Shown one piece after another: positions 50,539 through 64,000 of a stretch of 64,000 nt of DNA. The stretch is from the NCBI RefSeq assembly GCF_032362555.1, contig NC_083520.1:3224001-3288000 (forward strand), read 5' to 3'. The stretch comes from Amyelois transitella (taxonomy: Eukaryota > Arthropoda > Insecta > Lepidoptera > Pyralidae). Each line of letters begins with the position of its first letter. The stretch's first letter is position 1. Made by a program: the position numbers and the translations under genes. Below the pieces are notes generated by a model. That model was given only the letters and a program-made list of their open reading frames with translations. It was not told where the DNA came from and searched no databases.

Positions 50539-51567
50539 TTAACATTCATCTAACATTTGTAAGAGATCTTCTTGCGGCGATTTTGGTAAATTGGGATTAA
50601 ATGTTAAATCATATTCAATATTGTTTTTGAAATTAGTTGCAATATTTTCGAACTGTGTATCTATTTCGATCGTTCGTTTTTTATTTTGTTTATTTCCCAA
50701 TTCAAAAGGTAATTGTATCTTTAGGAATGTATGTTTTGTTGGAAGTATATCTTTTTCTATCGAAGAAAGAAGACAACTAATTTCAGAAGTGTCTGAGCAA
50801 CGTCTTTCAAAATCTTCTACGGGATTTTTCTTTGAATCATATTTATAAATATTCTCTCCCAAATTGTGTAAAATGTTTGGGTTAATAGTGGCAGGTAAAC
50901 TGAATGTGCCATCTTTATTTTGTAATCCCAATCGTAAAAGAACAGAAATTTTTGTATGATATTCTGAGAACCAAAGTATTAGGGTATTGCTCAAACATTT
51001 ATAATCGGCATCTGTAAAACGTTGTTCTATATTTTCGAACCTGCGCATTGTTTGTTCGATGAAACATTTGGGAAAATAGTGCGGTAGTAGCCGGGCAATA
51101 CTTTTTAGGTGTCGGCGGGTAATGTCAAATATATTTTGCTTTGTTGCTACTGAAAGCTGCCATTTAAATATCATAGTCATTAGGTCCCATAATTTAGTCA
51201 TAGAATACTCGTCCAGTTTCATAATAGATGTAGCAGATATATCTTGCAACAACTGTTTGGTGACGACATGTGTGGCCACTGGTTGTGGTATAAATAGTTC
51301 ATCTAAAAGTTTCGGGTGGAGCAAAACCGTAGCTATATCCATTAGAACTGTAAGTAAAAATAAACTTTATTAGTTACAAACTCGTCAATAGGTCCCATTT
51401 CATATAAGCATACCACTTAGCTACAGATACAATATTGAAAATTTTCAGAACTAACCTCTCTCTGACTTATCAGATCCTATATTTTGTGCTTTCAGTCTTT
51501 GGTCAATCACATATAACATCTCACATCCCAAATTCACAACTATAAAAGGCGTTGAAAAGTGCGACAT
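50539..51567 (-). CDS. OSCP1: Organic solute carrier partner 1 homologue
   Basis: Exons 51567-51456 and 51347-50539 join in phase (split codon G|TT) to 306 residues; human OSCP1 has 379. The N-terminus (FIVVNLGCEMLYVIDQRLKA) and the block TSIMKLDEYSMTKLWDLMTM match the human LNLGGEMLYILDQRL and ASIMKLNQASMDKLYDLMTM. The C-terminus LLQMLDEC matches LLAMMDEL. Vertebrate OSCP1 (NOR1) is linked to organic solute transport and to cilia/centrosomes. The insect role is not evident from sequence. The protein is soluble, with no membrane spans and no signal peptide. The shorter central region may reflect lineage loss. It shares a 43-bp divergent start region with the SMYD4-like gene. Confidence 0.9.
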
Positions 51568-51610
51568 CACAAATAAATCTGACACTGAAAAATCGATTCA
51601 GAAATCTAAT
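51568..51610. promoter_or_regulatory. 43-bp divergent region between OSCP1 and SMYD4-like starts
   Basis: Only 43 bases separate the two opposite ATG codons, so the 5' UTRs must either be tiny or overlap the partner gene. The segment is AT-rich (AAATCGATT present) and lacks a TATA box. A bidirectional, TATA-less promoter is inferred. Confidence 0.6.
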
Positions 51611-54206
51611 ATGAGTATAGATAACTGCTATGATAATGTCATAAAGAGACTTACAGATGAAAACAAAATAAAACCTTTATCACAAAAACTATTATCGCTA
51701 ACTAAAAATGATGAAAGGGTTTTATATGTTTATAATACACTGGAGAGCCTGAAAGCTTTTCCAAACTTATTACAAGTGTCCAAGTCGGACGAAATATCTA
51801 CAAAGTACCGTAACCAGGGCAACAAATACTACCAACAAAGAGAAAATTATACGGCCTTGCAGTATTATAATTTGTCTCTAGGATATGCACCGATAGAGTC
51901 TGAAGCTTACAGTTTATCTTTAGCTAATAGATCTGCAGTATTATGTTCTTTAAAAGCTTATAATGAGTGTATCAAAGATATTGAAAATGTATTCTCACAA
52001 AAATTTCCTGAAAAACTTAGAAAAAAGCTAAATGATAGGAAGGAAAAGTGTCAAGATAGTTTGCTTACCAAAAAACCTCCAGTCACAAATAATACAGACC
52101 TTTTGGAATCCTTTGAAATAAAAAATGATTCTCGATACCCTTGTGCTAATTCAAAGTTGGAGGTGGTATTCAATAAAGAAATGGGTCGGCATGTTGTGGC
52201 CAAAGAAGATATAAGGGTGGGTGAGACACTAGCCCAAGAGGAGCCCTATTTTGTTCTGTTATTAAAATCTCAGTATTTGGTATGTTGTAGTTACTGTTTA
52301 TCTAGAGATCTGAATTTAACACCATGCAGTAGTTGCTGTTTTGCTTTATATTGTTCTGAGAAGTGTAAGAAAAGAGCATGGAATGATTATCATTCAGTTG
52401 AGTGTTCACTTATGCCAACCATAATACACATGGAGTTTACTAAACTTGAATGGCTGGGCCTCCGTACTGTTATAAGGGCTCGAAATGACCATAACAATTG
52501 GAAAGACCTGTTCCAAACAATAAAAGAAGCTGAAGAGAATGCTGAAACTGAATTTCGAGGCCATGTCAAAATTGATGGTAAATGGGTGTATGATTCTAAG
52601 TATTATACTTCAATACATATGTTAGCGTCTAATATAGAAAAGAGGACCATTTCGGACATATTCCAAAAATCAGTTACTGCTGCAGTATTTTTGAAATTGC
52701 TTGAGGAGACAGAATTTTTGAAAGGTAATGTTGATGAGGAGAAAAATGATATAAAGAAATGTGTGGCAGGTATATTACTTCACCATATAATGACGAGCCC
52801 GACTAACATGCATGGAATATCAGGACTTATGCAGAATTCTATGGGGCACTATGAGGATGACACCAGCATTGCAAGCGCTTCATATGCTTTCCACAGTTTG
52901 ATCAACCACTCCTGTGCACCTAATGTTGTAAGATTTAACAAGTTGGGTACAGGAAAAATGACACTAATAGCTCTTAGACCTATAAAGAAAGGAATGCAGA
53001 TCTTTGACAACTATGGGTATGTATTAATTTAAAAAATAGTATTGTATTTAATCTCTATGGAAATTTTCTTTCTTTCTCCTTTGAAAGTGTATTTTTCTCA
53101 TGATCACTGATAATTTATATTTGGGCTTGCAACTATCTTTATATCTCAATGCCATCTTGCTAAACTTGGCTTTTAGTTTTATAATATTTGACTCTGCCTT
53201 CCCCATTAGGATATATGATTCCCATAGGATAAAGACGTGATATTGTGTGTCCTCAGATTTCAGTCCATTGCCTCGCAAAAGATGACATGCGAGCCAATGG
53301 ACTGAAATCCAAGGACGCCGATAACCGGACCAAGTAGAGAAAGTCAAGTCAGAAGGCGGACCAGGCACCCGTAACACTTCTGTGGAGGGTGCAACCGGGA
53401 TCATGCAGAGATTAGAGACAGAGAGAGACGTTATATTGTGTTTTTTCCTAAAAGAAAAACTTATTTTGGACTTCCTTGTACTTATATGTATTTATTTAAT
53501 TGATTTATGAAACTTTGAAACTAGCTTTCGCCCACTGTTTCAATCGCGTTAAACATTTTTTTTTGGTTTTTTCGATATCTAGGAATTATAAAAAAAGGAG
53601 TCACGTTTCCTTCTGCAAGGTTGAGTGGTTTAATTGTGAACTTGTTAACTGTGCTCTTACATTCATAATAAGTATTTATAATAAGTATATATTCCTGATA
53701 TTAGTACCTAACTAATGGGACGCGATACGACACGATATTTGTAAATTAGGAAGGTATGATTGAAAAAAAAAATAACGTGTATAAGTATAACTAATGACAA
53801 TATTTTTCTATTTATTTTCAGAGCACACCACGCATTAGATGATTACATGTCCCGGCAAAGCACATTGAAATTTCAATATAAATTCACTTGCGCATGCGAA
53901 GCTTGTGTCAATAAATGGCCGATGTATTTCAGTTTACCACCAGCTAAGTGCTTACGACCGCAGATAAAAAGCACCAAGTGTTCCCTGTTGCATCAAAATA
54001 ACATTGAAAAACTCCAAAAGGGCGATATCAAAATGGCCATCAAATTGTACAAACCTCTATGTGAACTTGCTCAAATGTTGGAACCCTATTGTCCATGTGT
54101 TGAATTAGCTGATTGCCAAGAAACTTTGAAGCAGTGCTTGCAGATATTTGGTGGTTTAATACCTAATTATATTGAAATTCCATGGAGTGTTAAGCCTTCA
54201 AACTAA
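51611..54206 (+). CDS. SMYD4: SET and MYND domain protein, SMYD4-like lysine methyltransferase
   Basis: Exons 51611-53016 and 53822-54206 join in phase (GG|A) to 596 residues. The order is TPR-like helices (~65-130, YRNQGNKYYQQRENYTALQY), start of SET (~180-212), MYND zinc finger (~226-265; CSYC, PCSSC, YCSEKC, HSVEC), SET core with INHSCAPNVVRF (431-442) and the FDNYG motif (465-469) split by the intron, then post-SET cysteines CACEAC and C-terminal helices. N-terminal TPRs before a SET split by MYND are typical of SMYD4. The family methylates lysines using S-adenosylmethionine. The key NHSC motif and a near-canonical (D/N)YG motif are present, so it is probably active. The intron carries a repeat with a near-perfect 21-bp hairpin. 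The exact SMYD subgroup could be another arthropod-specific clade. Confidence 0.9.
53210..53440. repeat. Dispersed-repeat-like segment with 21-bp imperfect hairpin
   Basis: Arms 53257-53277 and 53288-53308 pair with one mismatch around a 10-nt loop. The flanking GGACCAAGTAGAGAAAGTCA and GGCGGACCAGGCACCCGTAA look like a dispersed repeat, but no second copy exists in this window. It lies in the intron of the SMYD4-like gene. Confidence 0.4.
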
Positions 54207-56552: not shown

Positions 56553-57992
56553 TCACGTAGACAAAACATTTACATAAGAAAATAATACTATTAATATACT
56601 TAAAATACTGGAAATATTGTGGTGTAACAAACTAAATGCCCTAGATGGGGCAGTATCGTCGCCGAATTCTTTGAGTAGTTCTACATTCTTAATTTTAATT
56701 CGGTTACTAGTTTGAATATTTACAGGACCTAATTGTTTTAAGTAGTTAAATACACATTCGACTTCATTATATGGAAGGGTTTCCTTGTCAAGAGTTTCGA
56801 ACATCGTAAAACCGTCACCTCCCTTCGCTAAAAATTCTGGCATAGCCACTTTATATTCATAAGAGTCTTTTATGTAGCTTAATCCTGGTTTTCCACAGCC
56901 ATTACATACTGCTGAGGCGTCTATTATTCGAGAACCAGGCGGCTTCTCCAAGTTATAGGCTACTTTTATACCAGAAATTTGTAAAAATTGGCCAGTGCTA
57001 TCAATTTCCCGCCATGTCGATACTGAATGTTCCAGGGCCTGCTTCAATATCTTACCGTTCATTGTCACAATAGTCAACAAATCCGAAAATGGTAAAACTG
57101 TAATCCAGTCGCCTCTTGTCATCTCAAAAGGTTTCGGAAACCTATCTAGCGATGTTCTAATTCGACCACCCTGGACGATGGCTATACTTAAATCCTCATG
57201 GTGTGAATAAGCATATTTTTGACGTGTATAATTAACGACTGCATCTACGATCAAATCGCCAATATTACATTCTTTCAAACGGCATTCTCCGTCTAGAAAT
57301 ACTGATGATACTCCAACTACCTCACCGTTGATTTTGTCTATATCTTTTCGATATTTATTTATAGTTGCTTGGAGTTCCGGGTCTTTTGGTATATCCTGGT
57401 TCAAAAGTACTGGCGCGCCGTTAAAATCAATTATGTCGCCATCTTTATTGAAATTTAAATGCAATCTACCCATGTATTTAGTATACGCATATGCTTGCAC
57501 TACTAATACGGTTTTGCCGTTTGATTGTTTCACTGTTTTTGGATAGGGTCCTTGTGGTATTTCGGGTTTCTCTTCTGTTTTATTACCATTCCACAGAAAT
57601 GTGTTCGAATGTCCTCCTATAACTAAGTCAATGCCATCAACTTCTTTAGCTATTTCTAAGTCTTTTATATACCCTGAATGTCCTAGAGCTATAAGAATGT
57701 TTACACCATCCTTCTTCAGTTTATTTACTTCTCTTCTGATAGCGACTACTTCGTCTTCGTATTCTATTTTATTTTTTGGTGCCAAATACTTTGTTTCTGG
57801 CGTCAGGTATCCTATGATGCCTATTTTGATATCGTTGACTGGAATGACTACCGAAGGATGCAGATTTTTCTCATTCTGTAGTTCTGGCACGTTGTCCAGT
57901 ATAAGGTTAGCAGCCAAAACTGGTGATGTCAAGTTTCTGATAAATGGTATAACGCCTTCAACCTCCTCGTCGAACTCATGGTTGCCGAGAGA
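56553..57992 (-). CDS. 5'-nucleotidase C-terminal exon, copy A
   Basis: One uninterrupted exon of 479 codons after an acceptor (TTCCTTCCAG), starting SLGNHEFDEEVEG. Ecto-5'-nucleotidases hydrolyse extracellular nucleoside monophosphates at the cell surface; insect relatives also include secreted salivary apyrases. Visible family motifs are GNHEFD (metal ligands), ALGHSG, IGGHSNTFLWNG, GDWITVLPF and AKGGDGF. The hydrophobic tail ILSILIVLFSYV suggests a GPI-anchor signal. The usual QGGGIR loop reads QGGRIR, unlike copies B and C. The N-terminal part of the enzyme (signal peptide and first metal motif, HTND) is not encoded upstream before copy B. It is therefore either an alternative terminal exon of one larger gene or a truncated gene. 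Confidence 0.85.
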   Translation of the reverse strand, partial: SLGNHEFDEEVEGVIPFIRNLTSPVLAANLILDNVPELQNEKNLHPSVVIPVNDIKIGIIGYLTPETKYLAPKNKIEYEDEVVAIRREVNKLKKDGVNILIALGHSGYIKDLEIAKEVDGIDLVIGGHSNTFLWNGNKTEEKPEIPQGPYPKTVKQSNGKTVLVVQAYAYTKYMGRLHLNFNKDGDIIDFNGAPVLLNQDIPKDPELQATINKYRKDIDKINGEVVGVSSVFLDGECRLKECNIGDLIVDAVVNYTRQKYAYSHHEDLSIAIVQGGRIRTSLDRFPKPFEMTRGDWITVLPFSDLLTIVTMNGKILKQALEHSVSTWREIDSTGQFLQISGIKVAYNLEKPPGSRIIDASAVCNGCGKPGLSYIKDSYEYKVAMPEFLAKGGDGFTMFETLDKETLPYNEVECVFNYLKQLGPVNIQTSNRIKIKNVELLKEFGDDTAPSRAFSLLHHNISSILSILIVLFSYVNVLST

Positions 57993-59969
57993 CTGGAAGG
58001 AAAGAAATTTCAAGTCATCGATATAGTATAATTTGGATTTCACGTGATAAAACATGTAAGGTAGGAATATCACACTGCATTTTATTATCATTTATATACC
58101 TACGATGTAGGCTACTGTAGTTTTGGAAAAGAAAAAGAAAATATGCTAAATACTATATCGATGATATTTTTCCAGCTAAGTTTTCCAGGGTTTGATTTAA
58201 GCCGCTTGGTAGTTGCAATCGCGTCATCTACTTTCACAGTGATTTGATATTTAGTGAGTTAACACCCATCAAATCATAAGTAAATTTTTAAACCATATAT
58301 CATAGTGGTGAAGACATATTGGTACTTGTTACGGCTGACGGAAAACATAGGGAAACCTAAGGGAGGAGAAGTGGGAAGTGGAGTAGATGTGTATCCATGA
58401 TCCAATAGGTATTGGGATTCAAAATTGCAAAGGTTGCAAAACTGGGATGGGAGTCGCTTCGTGTAAAAAGCTGACCGATGAATGCTGTCTGATAATTTGT
58501 TATTTCTATTTTGTGATCTTCTACTACTGCTTATTAGCATAAGAATGGCAAATTACTGTAAATGTTCTTATAGATAATACTATTGTGATTAATAGGACCT
58601 TGTTTGGCATAATGAAACGAATTCAGATTGTAGAAATGTTTAATAAATATTTTTGTACTTATAAGTTATCAATTCAGGAACTTCACTTTGTTAGTGTTGT
58701 GGAATATTATAATAATATTATTTAGGTTTTTATGGTTGTAAAAAAATACCTTAATCTGACATTTAAGTATTTTTTTATGTAATTTAAACATCAACTTATG
58801 ATTTCTAGATATATATATTTCTAGATATATTCTAGATAGATAGATTCTTAGATCTTGCATTTTAACTGTAAATTTATGTTTGTAAAACACACTTAACTAG
58901 GATTTATTACATAGAACTTATAAGAATACACACGCACTCTGATGGACAATGTCAAAGGAAGATATGTATGTACCTACCTATCTATTTATAATATAGGGAT
59001 AATTTTTGTGGTAAATAAAAAACACATTATATTCGTGGCTATGTACATATTCAAGGAACATACCTAATTACTCATAGTAGTATAGCATAGTAGTAGGTAA
59101 ATTTCAACTTAGAAATTCGCATAAATATCCTTTTAGTCACAATATTTTATTTTAATTTCATCAGATATTTAAATCAAATCTTGTCACACATATTTTTAAC
59201 CATACAAAAGTGATAAAATTGTTATAAAAATAAACACTAACTATGTCACAACACTGTGTTAAAGTACCTATAATAAGCCTGCAGCAGGTTGGTTGGGTTT
59301 ATTAATTTTTGTGTTGTTTAATTTTTTTTTCTACCAATCGTTGGAAGCCACTGCTTTACGACGATTAATCAATAAAATAGCACAAAAAATTTTAGTAAAA
59401 TGGTATTATATAAGCTGATCGTGGCCTTTCCTGTTGGCTCTGGGTACTGTATTATGTATGTTTGAAATGGTAAACCATGTCAATTATAGCAATAATTAAT
59501 AACAAATTTTTATCTTATGCTGCCGCCTATGCTTAAATTAGAATTAAATTACAACAAATACTTATATCCGAGGAAATCTTTAGCTACAGACATTTTCTAC
59601 CATTTATCCCAAATCAATTTATTCACATACAGTTAAAGAAATACTGATATTTTGTATTTTTTATAATTAACCAGAGATCCGATTTAATACTGAATGTTTC
59701 GTTCGCCAATATATGTATTCCTAATTATAATCCAAGATTATGATATGTTTAGTATAATGGACAATTGTGTGTGAATAGAGAATATAATCTCTAAAGTCTG
59801 TGGTGTTAATCCACGTCCGTCTATTCTGCGATGTAGTTACCTAAATATCTCATCAAAATTTGTTATTCTTGTTGTTGACATTACCCCTAAAGAAAGAACT
59901 AATAATTTTTGTTCCAATTATTGCATTAGTATATATATTTGGTCCTGTACCTACTATTTAAATTATTCG
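57993..59969. other. Gap between 5'-nucleotidase exons A and B
   Basis: AT-rich. I searched for a 5'-nucleotidase N-terminal exon (HTND-type motif, signal peptide) and found none. A repeat fragment related to those at 13235 and 45010 lies near 58380-58480. There is a small R1 remnant near 59415-59470. Confidence 0.5.
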
Positions 59970-61358
59970 TTATTTATTAAGCGCTAATAACATCAATAGT
60001 AATAAGCCGTATGAAGGTAATAAAGAATTAGAGCTTGATCTAATCGCATCTAAATTTAGCAAAATTGACCTTCCCTCCACTTCGGGCAGGACATCCGTAT
60101 ATCGTTGTAAATAGGTCTTTAAGCAAAAGAGTTCATCATATGGATATGTTTCTTTTGGCAAACCAATAATCATAGTGTAACCATCTCCGCCATTAGAAAT
60201 AAATGTAGGCATTAAGACATTGTATAATTTGTCTTCTTCTATTATGGAATACTTTGGAATATCACACGCAGCACATCTTGCTTTTGCTTCCACCACTCTT
60301 GAGTTTGGGGGAAGTTTCAAATCGTAAACAACTTTTATACCAGAGTACTGGAGAAATTCACCAGGATAATCCAAAAGATTATATTTTGACACTGAATATT
60401 CAATAACTTGTAATAAAACGCTACCGTTCATTGTTACTCTCGATATACTACCTTTGAAAGGTAATACTGTTAGAAGATCTCCTCTTGTTAATACAGCAGG
60501 CTTTCTTGTATGTGTTATGGATGCTCTTATACCTCCTCCCTGAATAATAGCTATAGGTGCATCTGTCCAATGTTTACCAGTGTAATTTTTTACATAGGTA
60601 TAAATCATGGCGTCTGCTATTAAGTTTCCTAAATTACATTCAATTTTCTGACAATTTAAGCCATCTAGTGGAACTAAACTAGTACCCACCACAGCTTGTG
60701 TTGTGTTACTTACTTGCAATCTGTATTTATCGACTATCTTTAAAGTTTCTGTATCCTGTGGAATCGAACTATTTAGAAGAATGGGGTATCCATCAGCAGA
60801 AACCAAATTTCCATTAGTATCGAATATTAAATGCAATTTCCCTAAATACTTTGTATAAGCATATGCTTGTACTACTGGTACTAATTTTCCTGAATGTTGC
60901 ACTACGTAAGTGGGGTACGGTCCTTGAATTTCTTCTGAATCAGGAGAAGTTCCATTCCAAAGGAAAGTATTAGAATGTCCTCCGATAACTAAGTCGATTC
61001 CGTCAACTTCTTTTCCAATTTCTAAATCTTTGCTAAAACCAGAATGCCCTAATGCTATTATAATTTTACACCCTTGATCTTTCAGTTTTGGAACTTCTTC
61101 TTTAAGGGCAACGATTTCATCAATGTATTCTACATCATTTTTCTTTGCTAATATTTTAGTATCTGGTGTCAGGTATCCCACAATGCCAACTTTATGACCT
61201 GAAGTGTTGATGACTACTGATTTCTTGAGATTTGTCTCCTTGGCTAATTCCGGAACTTTAGAAAGAATTAAGTTAGCTGCTAACACTGGAGTGTTTAAAT
61301 TTTCTATGAATGGAGTAAGACCATCCACGTCGTTGTCAAACTCGTGATTTCCAAGGGA
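59970..61358 (-). CDS. 5'-nucleotidase C-terminal exon, copy B
   Basis: One exon of 462 codons after a TTGTTTCAG acceptor, starting SLGNHEFDNDVDG in the same phase as copies A and C. Motifs GNHEFD, ALGHSGFSKD, IGGHSNTFLWNG, IIQGGGIRASI, GDLLTVLPF and SNGGDGY are intact. The C-terminus SYGLLLLMLLALNK looks like a GPI-anchor signal. Only ~300 bp separate its acceptor from the stop of copy C, with no room for a signal-peptide exon that I can recognise. Confidence 0.88.
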   Translation of the reverse strand, partial: SLGNHEFDNDVDGLTPFIENLNTPVLAANLILSKVPELAKETNLKKSVVINTSGHKVGIVGYLTPDTKILAKKNDVEYIDEIVALKEEVPKLKDQGCKIIIALGHSGFSKDLEIGKEVDGIDLVIGGHSNTFLWNGTSPDSEEIQGPYPTYVVQHSGKLVPVVQAYAYTKYLGKLHLIFDTNGNLVSADGYPILLNSSIPQDTETLKIVDKYRLQVSNTTQAVVGTSLVPLDGLNCQKIECNLGNLIADAMIYTYVKNYTGKHWTDAPIAIIQGGGIRASITHTRKPAVLTRGDLLTVLPFKGSISRVTMNGSVLLQVIEYSVSKYNLLDYPGEFLQYSGIKVVYDLKLPPNSRVVEAKARCAACDIPKYSIIEEDKLYNVLMPTFISNGGDGYTMIIGLPKETYPYDELFCLKTYLQRYTDVLPEVEGRSILLNLDAIRSSSNSLLPSYGLLLLMLLALNK

Positions 61359-61587
61359 CTGAAACAAAAATTTGATATTGGACCTTATCAATACTTTAAA
61401 TTTCAACTCTAAAATTAATTAATATATTATATAATTTTAGAATATAATCATTAAATAGAAAAATTAAAAGATTTCACGTTTACACAGATGTATGTAATAT
61501 TATACAACATTATTTTCGTATACTTACAATATGTACTAATATAAACCAACAATTCGGTTATAACATAATATTACCCTATTGGCAAAC

Positions 61588-61593
61588 TTTATT
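61588..61593 (-). terminator. Candidate polyadenylation signal for copy C
   Basis: AATAAA on the minus strand ~70 bp after the copy C stop codon and before the copy B acceptor. It would let copy C serve as a terminal exon on its own. Confidence 0.45.
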
Positions 61594-61663
61594 GTAAATT
61601 CTCTGTTTGAAAGTAAAAAATTAAAACCCTTTTTTTACTGTGTAAGTAATATCAATAACAATT

Positions 61664-63058
61664 TTACCATAAACAGTCCAAAAACATATAAAATATTATA
61701 ATTAAACCTATGGAGCCCTGTATGGATACGGTAGAACTTTTAACCCAATTGAGGTTATCTAAAATTATACGATTTTCTACAGCGTAATATATGGGACTAA
61801 TCTTTTTAAAATAATTAGTAGTACAATTTAATTCATCATAGTCTAAAGCTACTGATGGAAGCCCATTTAGAACTGAAAATCCGTCACCTCCTGTTGAAAG
61901 AAATGATGGCATTAAAATATTGTAATACTGTGAAACGTTCAGAGCAGAATACGTAGGAATATCGCAAGTTCCACAACGAAGTAAAACTCGGGTAACTCTT
62001 TTTCCGCGTTTCTTTTTAAAATCATATTGAACTTGAATTCCAGAAACTTGGAGAAATTGACCGGGAGCACGTTTTGGTCTATAAAAGGCAACGGCGTGTT
62101 CAAGCATCTTTAAAACGTTAGTTCCGTTAACTGATACTTTTGCTAAATTACCACCAAATGGCAAAACTATTAGTACATCGCCTTTCGTTACATTCGCAGG
62201 TAAACTAAGCTTGGCTATAGAAGATCTTATGCCGCCTCCCTGAATTATAGCTATTGGAGCATCGGTCCAACCTACTCCTTTATACTCTGAAGCATATTTA
62301 TTAACCATAGCATCAGCTATAAAGTTACCCATATTACATTCCTTGACGCGACAAGAATGTCCATCTAGAATAACAGAAGTTTGGCCAACAATTATTTCAG
62401 TTTCTTTAAGTACTTCGCCGCGATACTTGTTAACGATAGATAAAACGTCAGGATCCTGAGGTACAGATTTATCTAACAAAATTGGATTTCCATCAAAGCT
62501 GATAAGATCGCCATTAGTGTTAAACACCAAGTGAAGTTTTCCTAAGTATTTTGTATACGCGTAAGCTTGAACTGCAGGAACAGATTTTCCTGACTTTTGC
62601 TTTACTATCGTGGGATATGGGCCTTCAGGTGTTTCCGTTTCATTAGTTAAGCCATTCCATAGAAAGGTATTCGTGTGTCCGCCTATGACGAGATCGATAT
62701 CCTCAACTTTTTTGGCGATCTCGAGATCTTTTGTAAATCCCGAATGACCTAAAGCGATAAATATTTTTACTCCTTCTTTCTTTAATCTGTCTACTTCTTT
62801 TTTGATGGCAGATACTTCTTCTTCGTATATTATATCGTTTCTCACTGCTAAAACTTGCGTTTCTGGTGTTAAATATCCAATAACACCTATTTTGGTATTA
62901 GATATGTTAAATACTACAGAGTTCATAAGGTTTGTTTCTGATTCAAGGGTTGGTTCCATAGTGAGATTGAGATTGGCTGCCAGGACAGGACAGGTCACAT
63001 TTTCAATAAATGGCGTCAATCCAGAAACCCCATTATCCAATTCGTGGTTACCCAGAGA
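61664..63058 (-). CDS. 5'-nucleotidase C-terminal exon, copy C
   Basis: One exon of 464 codons after a TTGTTTCAG acceptor, starting SLGNHELDNGVSG. Motifs GNHELD, ALGHSGFTKD, IGGHTNTFLWNG, IIQGGGIRSSI, GDVLIVLPF and STGGDGF are present. The hydrophobic C-terminus IGLIIIFYMFLDCLW fits a GPI-anchor signal. It is followed by a nearby AATAAA. It is closely similar to copy B, which suggests recent tandem duplication of the exon. Confidence 0.88.
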   Translation of the reverse strand, partial: SLGNHELDNGVSGLTPFIENVTCPVLAANLNLTMEPTLESETNLMNSVVFNISNTKIGVIGYLTPETQVLAVRNDIIYEEEVSAIKKEVDRLKKEGVKIFIALGHSGFTKDLEIAKKVEDIDLVIGGHTNTFLWNGLTNETETPEGPYPTIVKQKSGKSVPAVQAYAYTKYLGKLHLVFNTNGDLISFDGNPILLDKSVPQDPDVLSIVNKYRGEVLKETEIIVGQTSVILDGHSCRVKECNMGNFIADAMVNKYASEYKGVGWTDAPIAIIQGGGIRSSIAKLSLPANVTKGDVLIVLPFGGNLAKVSVNGTNVLKMLEHAVAFYRPKRAPGQFLQVSGIQVQYDFKKKRGKRVTRVLLRCGTCDIPTYSALNVSQYYNILMPSFLSTGGDGFSVLNGLPSVALDYDELNCTTNYFKKISPIYYAVENRIILDNLNWVKSSTVSIQGSIGLIIIFYMFLDCLW

Positions 63059-63599
63059 CTGAAACAAATAAAAAAATATTAAATTCATAATGTAGAAATA
63101 ATACCGAAAATATTATAAAATAGACACCAAATAAGACAGCAAAGATTAGGAAACACCAATAATGCAAGTAGGTAAGGTATGCATAAACATGCAGCATTAA
63201 TTAATATCGCAGGGAGAAAGAAAGAACTCAACTAAACGTTATAATTTTTTGGCAAGCAATACGAATATTTTCATGCTGTTAAAATTTGGTAAACGTTTTG
63301 TTTTAACAAAATATATTTAACAGGCCATCGGTCTGAATAGTAAGAGAGCATGCAAAAGAAATAGAGAAAAGATTCAGAAAGAGCATGCCTGGAATAAATA
63401 CCGTTTAGGTTTGTACTGCTACTTATCCCATATGGTAATATATTCTTATTCTTCCTTAGCTGGTCCAATTTTCACTATCACAAATATTTATGTTTATATA
63501 AAACAATTACATGGTTATAATAGAAATGACTTTGATGGCTGGTTATATCGGGTTAAAATAAAAACATATTTATGTGTTAAAACTATTTTTGTTACAAAA

Positions 63600-64000
63600 T
63601 TAAGAGAGAACACGTGAAAGAACAATAAGTGCAAATATTAAAACAGAAGAAGTGAATGTGGCTGCAGAATCAGGCGCGTTCAGTAAAATAGTACGTCCTG
63701 CTACTTCTGGATATACAGGACTTCTTAGGTTTAAGTATTCTGCTAGACATGTCACCTCATCATAAGCAAGTTCTTCTTGCGGTAAATTAGTAAGCATAGT
63801 AAAACCATATTGTGCGTCCAATAATGACAAAGGCATTATTATTTTGTATTCTCTCCAATCGTCGATAGCAAAGAATTGAGGTACTAAGCATGACCAGCAT
63901 CGAACTACTACAGATACGATTCTTGTACCTGGTTCGTTGTCGAAGTCGTATATAACCCTAACACCCGAAAATTGCAAGAATTGGCCAGAAGGATTTGAAG
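63600..64000 (-). CDS. 5'-nucleotidase C-terminal exon, copy D (cut by window edge)
   Basis: The open frame runs off the window. The visible end reads PSGQFLQFSGVRVIYDF, followed by CWSCLVPQFFAIDDWREYKI, YGFTMLTNLPQEELAYDEVT and a hydrophobic tail SSVLIFALIVLSRVLS. The usual GGDGFTM segment is DAQYGFTM here, so the two glycines and Asp of the substrate-loop motif are changed. It is the most diverged of the four copies. Confidence 0.8.
   Translation of the reverse strand, partial: SNPSGQFLQFSGVRVIYDFDNEPGTRIVSVVVRCWSCLVPQFFAIDDWREYKIIMPLSLLDAQYGFTMLTNLPQEELAYDEVTCLAEYLNLRSPVYPEVAGRTILLNAPDSAATFTSSVLIFALIVLSRVLS

Follow-up and report, generated by a model that had tools for sequence, protein, structure and literature searches.

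An ecto-5'-nucleotidase gene of Amyelois transitella very likely consists of one shared N-terminal part, referred to here as the head, and four last exons that are alternatives to one another, here called tails, to one of which the head would be spliced in cis. Its products would probably be three functional forms of the enzyme and a dead one. The tails were encountered at the end of the window, the whole stretch of 64,000 nucleotides that was analysed (C16:3224001-3288000), and the genome searched comprised 327,366,114 bases in 33 contigs. One of these, C33, is mitochondrial: its COX1 match shows no stops but TGA in the standard code and is open throughout under table 5, and its tRNAs start with Met-Ile-Gln, an arrangement typical of Lepidoptera. 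The model is supported by the existence of a single close head, by matching intron phases, by selection on each tail and by the gain in Metallophos score when head and tail are joined.

The minus strand of the window contains the 5'-nucleotidase terminal exons A, B and C in full and the final 401 bp of another one, D, which starts at C16:3288961, 961 bp past the window end. Together with two head exons, the four are arranged in the order head-D-C-B-A, all six on the same strand in one 12.25-kb span. The features are as follows, with a slash at splice junctions and window positions where no contig is given.

Head exon 1, C16:3292582-3292805, minus strand: hydrophobic leader, HNNDMHARFEQT...GGFPRVAYV, beginning after CTAATTTCAG; donor TATGT/GTGAGT, phase 2
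Head exon 2, C16:3291005-3291158, minus strand: VKEARR...AGDTYTG...QPDAV, preceded by CTTGCAG/, with the frame restored across the junction (GGFPRVAYVVKEARR); donor GCTGTG/GTAAGT, phase 0
Terminal exon D, whole, C16:3287600-3288961, minus strand: 453 aa and stop; acceptor TTCCTTTTCAG/TCGCTCGGA, phase 0
Terminal exon D, part in the window, 63600..64000, minus strand: last 401 bp
Terminal exon C, 61664..63058, minus strand: 464 aa and stop; acceptor TTATTTGTTTCAG/TCTCTGGGT, phase 0
Terminal exon B, 59970..61358, minus strand: 462 aa and stop; acceptor TTTTTGTTTCAG/TCCCTTGGA, phase 0
Terminal exon A, 56553..57992, minus strand: 479 aa and stop; acceptor TTTCCTTCCAG/TCTCTCGGC, phase 0; second half of the metallophosphatase domain, 5'-nucleotidase C-terminal domain and hydrophobic GPI-type tail

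All four tails begin in phase 0 at SLGN, and in A, B and C the frame is open between the CAG/ acceptor and the stop. A sequence-only reading of this DNA had described A to D as all running from SLGNHE, which is correct for A, B and C, whereas D begins with SLGNND and has only 401 bp inside the window. The same reading had A to C starting after acceptors of one phase; this was found to be so, and to extend to D. The proteins encoded by the four tails are 40-55% identical in pairs (49-55% among A, B and C), and the exons are separated by 1977 bp (A-B), 305 bp (B-C) and 541 bp (C-D). In the genome profile search, the Pfam family 5_nucleotid_C matched A to D with E-values from 5.6e-34 to 1.1e-26. 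These matches, and the rarity with which simulated neutral drift leaves a frame free of stops (see below), indicate that the array is not a product of chance. The order of descent of the tails is less clear, as three trees lie about 3 lnL units apart and none is favoured.

Poly(A)-like hexamers were found 3' of the stop of C (AATAAA at 71 nt), of A (ATTAAA at 51 nt, AATAAA at 379 nt) and of B (ATTAAA at 282 nt, AATAAA at 347 nt). Exon D has neither AATAAA nor ATTAAA in the 541 bp that precede C, where only weaker variants occur; hexamers of this kind abound in AT-rich DNA, so that their presence or absence here is weak evidence. A selector or intron element shared between tails was sought with blastn among the four upstream flanks and the flank downstream of A, which returned only matches of 11-33 bp (best E-value 0.03).

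N-terminal exons had been predicted upstream of position 64000, and a two-exon head was indeed read there, 2.0-3.8 kb upstream of the start of D. It contains the motifs HNNDMH and AGDTYTG and ends in a donor that agrees in phase 0 with the acceptors of all four tails. Introns from this donor would measure 2043 bp to D, 3946 bp to C, 5646 bp to B and 9012 bp to A. A further 5' exon should exist, because the sole in-frame Met of head exon 1 sits inside the HNNDMH motif. Among 23 ATG-to-donor candidates for the start-codon exon in 24 kb, none was compelling and none was chosen. The composition of the gene changes sharply along its length: the GC content at third positions is 0.70 in the head exons (C16:3291005-3292805) versus 0.25-0.32 in the four tails.

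Joining the head to the tails completes the metallophosphatase domain. The Metallophos score rose from 25.9 to 54.4 bits for A, from 24.8 to 52.6 for B and from 20.3 to 48.8 for C, the headless frames including some residues upstream of the acceptor and headless C falling below the cut-off of 21.5 bits. In these three cases the match began at profile position 64-67 without the head and at position 3 once the head was joined. The head joined to D scored 45.1 bits. Both Metallophos and 5_nucleotid_C exceed the Pfam cut-offs in all four spliced models. Tail A matches a CD73 chain (6vc9) with an E-value of 1.5e-96, and head plus D matches a venom 5'-nucleotidase (5h7w) over query residues 30-552 (2.4e-99). 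HNNDMH and AGDTYTG of the head, which are metal-ligand motifs (ND-H and GD, respectively), align with the venom enzyme. A hydrophobic leader in head exon 1 and a hydrophobic C-terminal stretch in each of the four tails were read from the sequence, with no dedicated predictor. By its sequence, the gene is of the ecto-5'-nucleotidase (CD73, NT5E) type.

No second head was found. Searched against the genome, the head returned six matches, namely its own two exons and the heads of four paralogs with 37-42% identity (three on C21, one on C19), and is thus its own only close match in 327 Mb. Tail A returned 21 matches, of which four are near full-length (42-100% identity) and correspond to A-D; 17 more cover shorter pieces and lie on C21, C19 and C23. 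The 5_nucleotid_C family search gave 11 matches, four of them A-D; for repeats and large families, such genome counts are lower bounds. Over 48 kb around the array (C16:3269001-3317000), tblastn of the head recovered its own two exons; every other hit had an E-value of 2.3 or more. That the gaps between the tails lack N-terminal exons, as initially stated, was upheld: head motifs are absent from the three minus-strand frames of every gap, and tblastn of the head within the gaps gave just two hits, both with an E-value of 23 and on the opposite strand, one overlapping A. Separate heads for A, B and C were therefore rejected on the gap and genome searches, with the reservation that a strongly diverged head could be missed, as even the head exons of this gene were missing from the genome matches listed for the Metallophos family. 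A more distant 5'-nucleotidase relative lies at C23:6146535-6148698, where tail pieces were matched and no head was; its head is probably too diverged for the query. Beyond the insect genome, 36 bacterial relatives in the genome-contig collection (31-39% identity over the best segment) were of no use for comparison with insects, and none of the 207 stretches of viral contigs that fitted a pattern was confirmed as a relative.

The four paralogous genes have heads of their own, and all four possess an intron at the same place and in the same phase. Their junctions, DAH/AIGNHE or DAH/VLGNHE in phase 0, are equivalent in position to QPDAV/SLGNHE in the array gene. This conservation suggests that the intron before GNHE is old. 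The paralog tails match in several separate pieces, unlike those of the array, each of which is a single exon; the single-exon tail and its multiplication would be features of the array gene. For the final coding portion of the C19 paralog there is a second, stop-containing match at C19:3093047-3093190, about 1.2 kb beyond the intact one, which looks like a decayed duplicate exon.

The tails are under selective constraint. A one-ratio codon model over 452 gap-free codons gave an omega of about 0.04, and fixing omega at 1 cost about 330 lnL units. Omega = 1 was rejected on the terminal branch of each tail with all three trees (2ΔlnL from 13.8 to 36.7; 31-33 for A, 33-37 for B, 14-16 for C and 23-25 for D), although the synonymous sites are saturated, which makes the omega values rough, and recent disuse of a tail would be compatible with the tests. 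When neutral drift was simulated from tail C, a stop-free frame was left in 1 of 200 runs at 74% identity and in none of 200 at either 55 or 43%. Codon model and simulation together led to rejection of the view that the tails are dead copies, against which the sequence-only reading had already argued from the open frames.

The active-site residues of CD73 were placed on the tails through the alignment of tail A with CD73, using the 12 tail-encoded catalytic, metal-binding and substrate-binding positions in CD73 numbering. Eleven of the 12 are kept in A and C, ten in B and five in D. A, B and C all have Gln at the position of Asn390. In tail B, residue 237 is a Gln at the position of Arg354, which is Arg in A, C and D; a change of substrate preference is possible. 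Tail D retains Asn117, His220, His243, Asn245 and Arg354. It has lost the catalytic His118 (to Asn), together with Asp121 (Glu), Asn390 (His), Arg395 (Ala), Phe417 (Val), Phe500 (Ser) and Asp506 (Tyr). The excess of this loss over the general divergence of D is marginal: of the columns that do not vary among A, B and C, D keeps 4 of 11 at the active site and 115 of 169 elsewhere (p = 0.046, Fisher test). Tail D probably encodes half of a pseudoenzyme and not of a working nucleotidase. It is regarded as a pseudoenzyme rather than a dying exon, since active-site residues are lost yet the frame is constrained.

In the proposed mechanism, one phase-0 donor (QPDAV/) would be spliced in cis to one of four phase-0 acceptors (/SLGN), each tail contributing a stop, a C-terminal domain, a GPI-type tail and a 3' end of its own. 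From the head would come the metal ligands of HNNDMH and AGDTYTG, and from the tail the catalytic motif GNHE, the motifs GHS and GGHxN and the substrate pocket. Three active surface enzymes would result from A, B and C, and a folded, catalytically dead one from D. An early stop of transcription with polyadenylation would yield D, whereas transcription running further would give C, B or A. We infer the use of all four junctions in RNA, splicing in cis, GPI anchoring of the products, and their activity or inactivity as the residues suggest. The catalytic residues of A, B and C would be useless without the head, so that their retention favours joining to it.

Alternatively, and with a small probability, the head transcript may be joined in trans to separately transcribed tails that have promoters of their own. 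At the DNA level a shared donor with many phase-matched tails would look identical, and the paralog heads also end in phase 0, so that their joins would be in frame too. The tails of Drosophila mod(mdg4) lie on both strands. For this gene, the abstract of one account describes common exons joined in trans to alternative 3' exons from independent promoters (PMC12692577), which provides a precedent. The array gene resembles mod(mdg4), as it appears from that abstract, in having common exons and one of many 3' exons; it differs in that its pieces are all ordered on one strand within 12 kb, whereas those of mod(mdg4) are joined in trans. The same strand and the short gaps make independent tail promoters of the mod(mdg4) type less likely, the 305 bp between B and C presumably leaving little room for a 3' end and a promoter. 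No step requires trans-splicing, and splicing in cis is simpler.

It is more improbable that only D, the tail nearest to the head, is used and that A, B and C are orphaned duplicate exons heading for death. Incomplete tandem duplications can leave headless copies, and an extra stop-containing copy of part of a paralog does lie at C19:3093047; against this, A, B and C, 49-55% identical to one another, each have an open frame of 462-479 codons, all three reject omega = 1, and it is D, not A-C, that has lost most of the active-site residues. The least probable reading makes A, B and C separate genes whose N-terminal exons or starts lie unrecognised in the gaps. An in-frame ATG does occur 99 bp upstream of the acceptor of A, with a partly hydrophobic stretch, and the searches could overlook a head that has diverged strongly. 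The B-C gap nevertheless has only its 305 bp and no head motif, the only tblastn hits of the head in the gaps have an E-value of 23, the genome search found no spare head, and no enzyme would be possible without the metal ligands of a head, yet the catalytic residues are retained. The model of a shared head spliced in cis to alternative tails is preferred to all three.

At the DNA level, the array gene has the plan of a shared head with alternative last exons: a single head, and tandem tails of matching phase, each with a stop. It is like the CD73 (NT5E) family in its two Pfam domains, its matches to structure chains and its hydrophobic GPI-type C-termini, and unlike it in that four tails have one head in common and one of them, D, is without most catalytic residues. 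Glutathione S-transferases (GSTs) are smaller cytosolic enzymes unrelated to nucleotidases, and the plan of GSTD1 is a shared 5' exon with alternative 3' exons. In Anopheles, a common 5' exon is spliced to alternative 3' exons in GSTS1 (PMC1797171), and GSTD1 has four alternatively spliced variants (PMC2588609). The array gene shares with both a common 5' part and alternative 3' exons. It differs from them in encoding a probable membrane enzyme whose active site is split between head and tail, and in that one tail is predicted to be dead. No nucleotidase gene of this plan was recognisable in the titles and abstract openings of the open-access literature matches listed, and isoforms may well appear elsewhere. 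The plan as such has been described before; a CD73-type enzyme built on it, with a split active site and a dead tail, was not seen among those matches.

Here a constant exon and a variable one would each supply part of a single catalytic site, whereas genes with many tails are best known for DNA-binding and adaptor proteins. Selection could reshape substrate pocket and membrane tail without touching the metal chemistry, and the array would amount to a natural series of chimeras, one of them dead. It is possible, though rather doubtful, that the choice of last exon yields three active ectonucleotidases that differ in substrate preference, together with a selectively maintained pseudoenzyme D. 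CD73 enzymes dimerise. If this reading is true, D, having the same head, could form dimers with the active enzymes or bind nucleotides and leave them uncleaved, and the level of extracellular adenosine, in gut or saliva for instance, would be set by splicing. Annotation that ignores the shared head would misread nucleotidase gene counts in moths and butterflies, with three headless genes or pseudogenes. In saliva of Helicoverpa zea caterpillars, apyrase is among the ATP-hydrolysing enzymes, which according to the title of the paper suppress plant defences (PMC3405022). Nucleotidase tail diversity may bear on feeding.

Other open frames lie near the array in the window. Downstream of the array, a frame of 275 codons occupies 50539-51366 on the minus strand. 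At 51455-53032 on the plus strand, pointing towards the nucleotidase array, an open frame encodes a SET domain and a MYND finger (SMYD-like protein), and the ORF at 53760-54206 may be its next exon.
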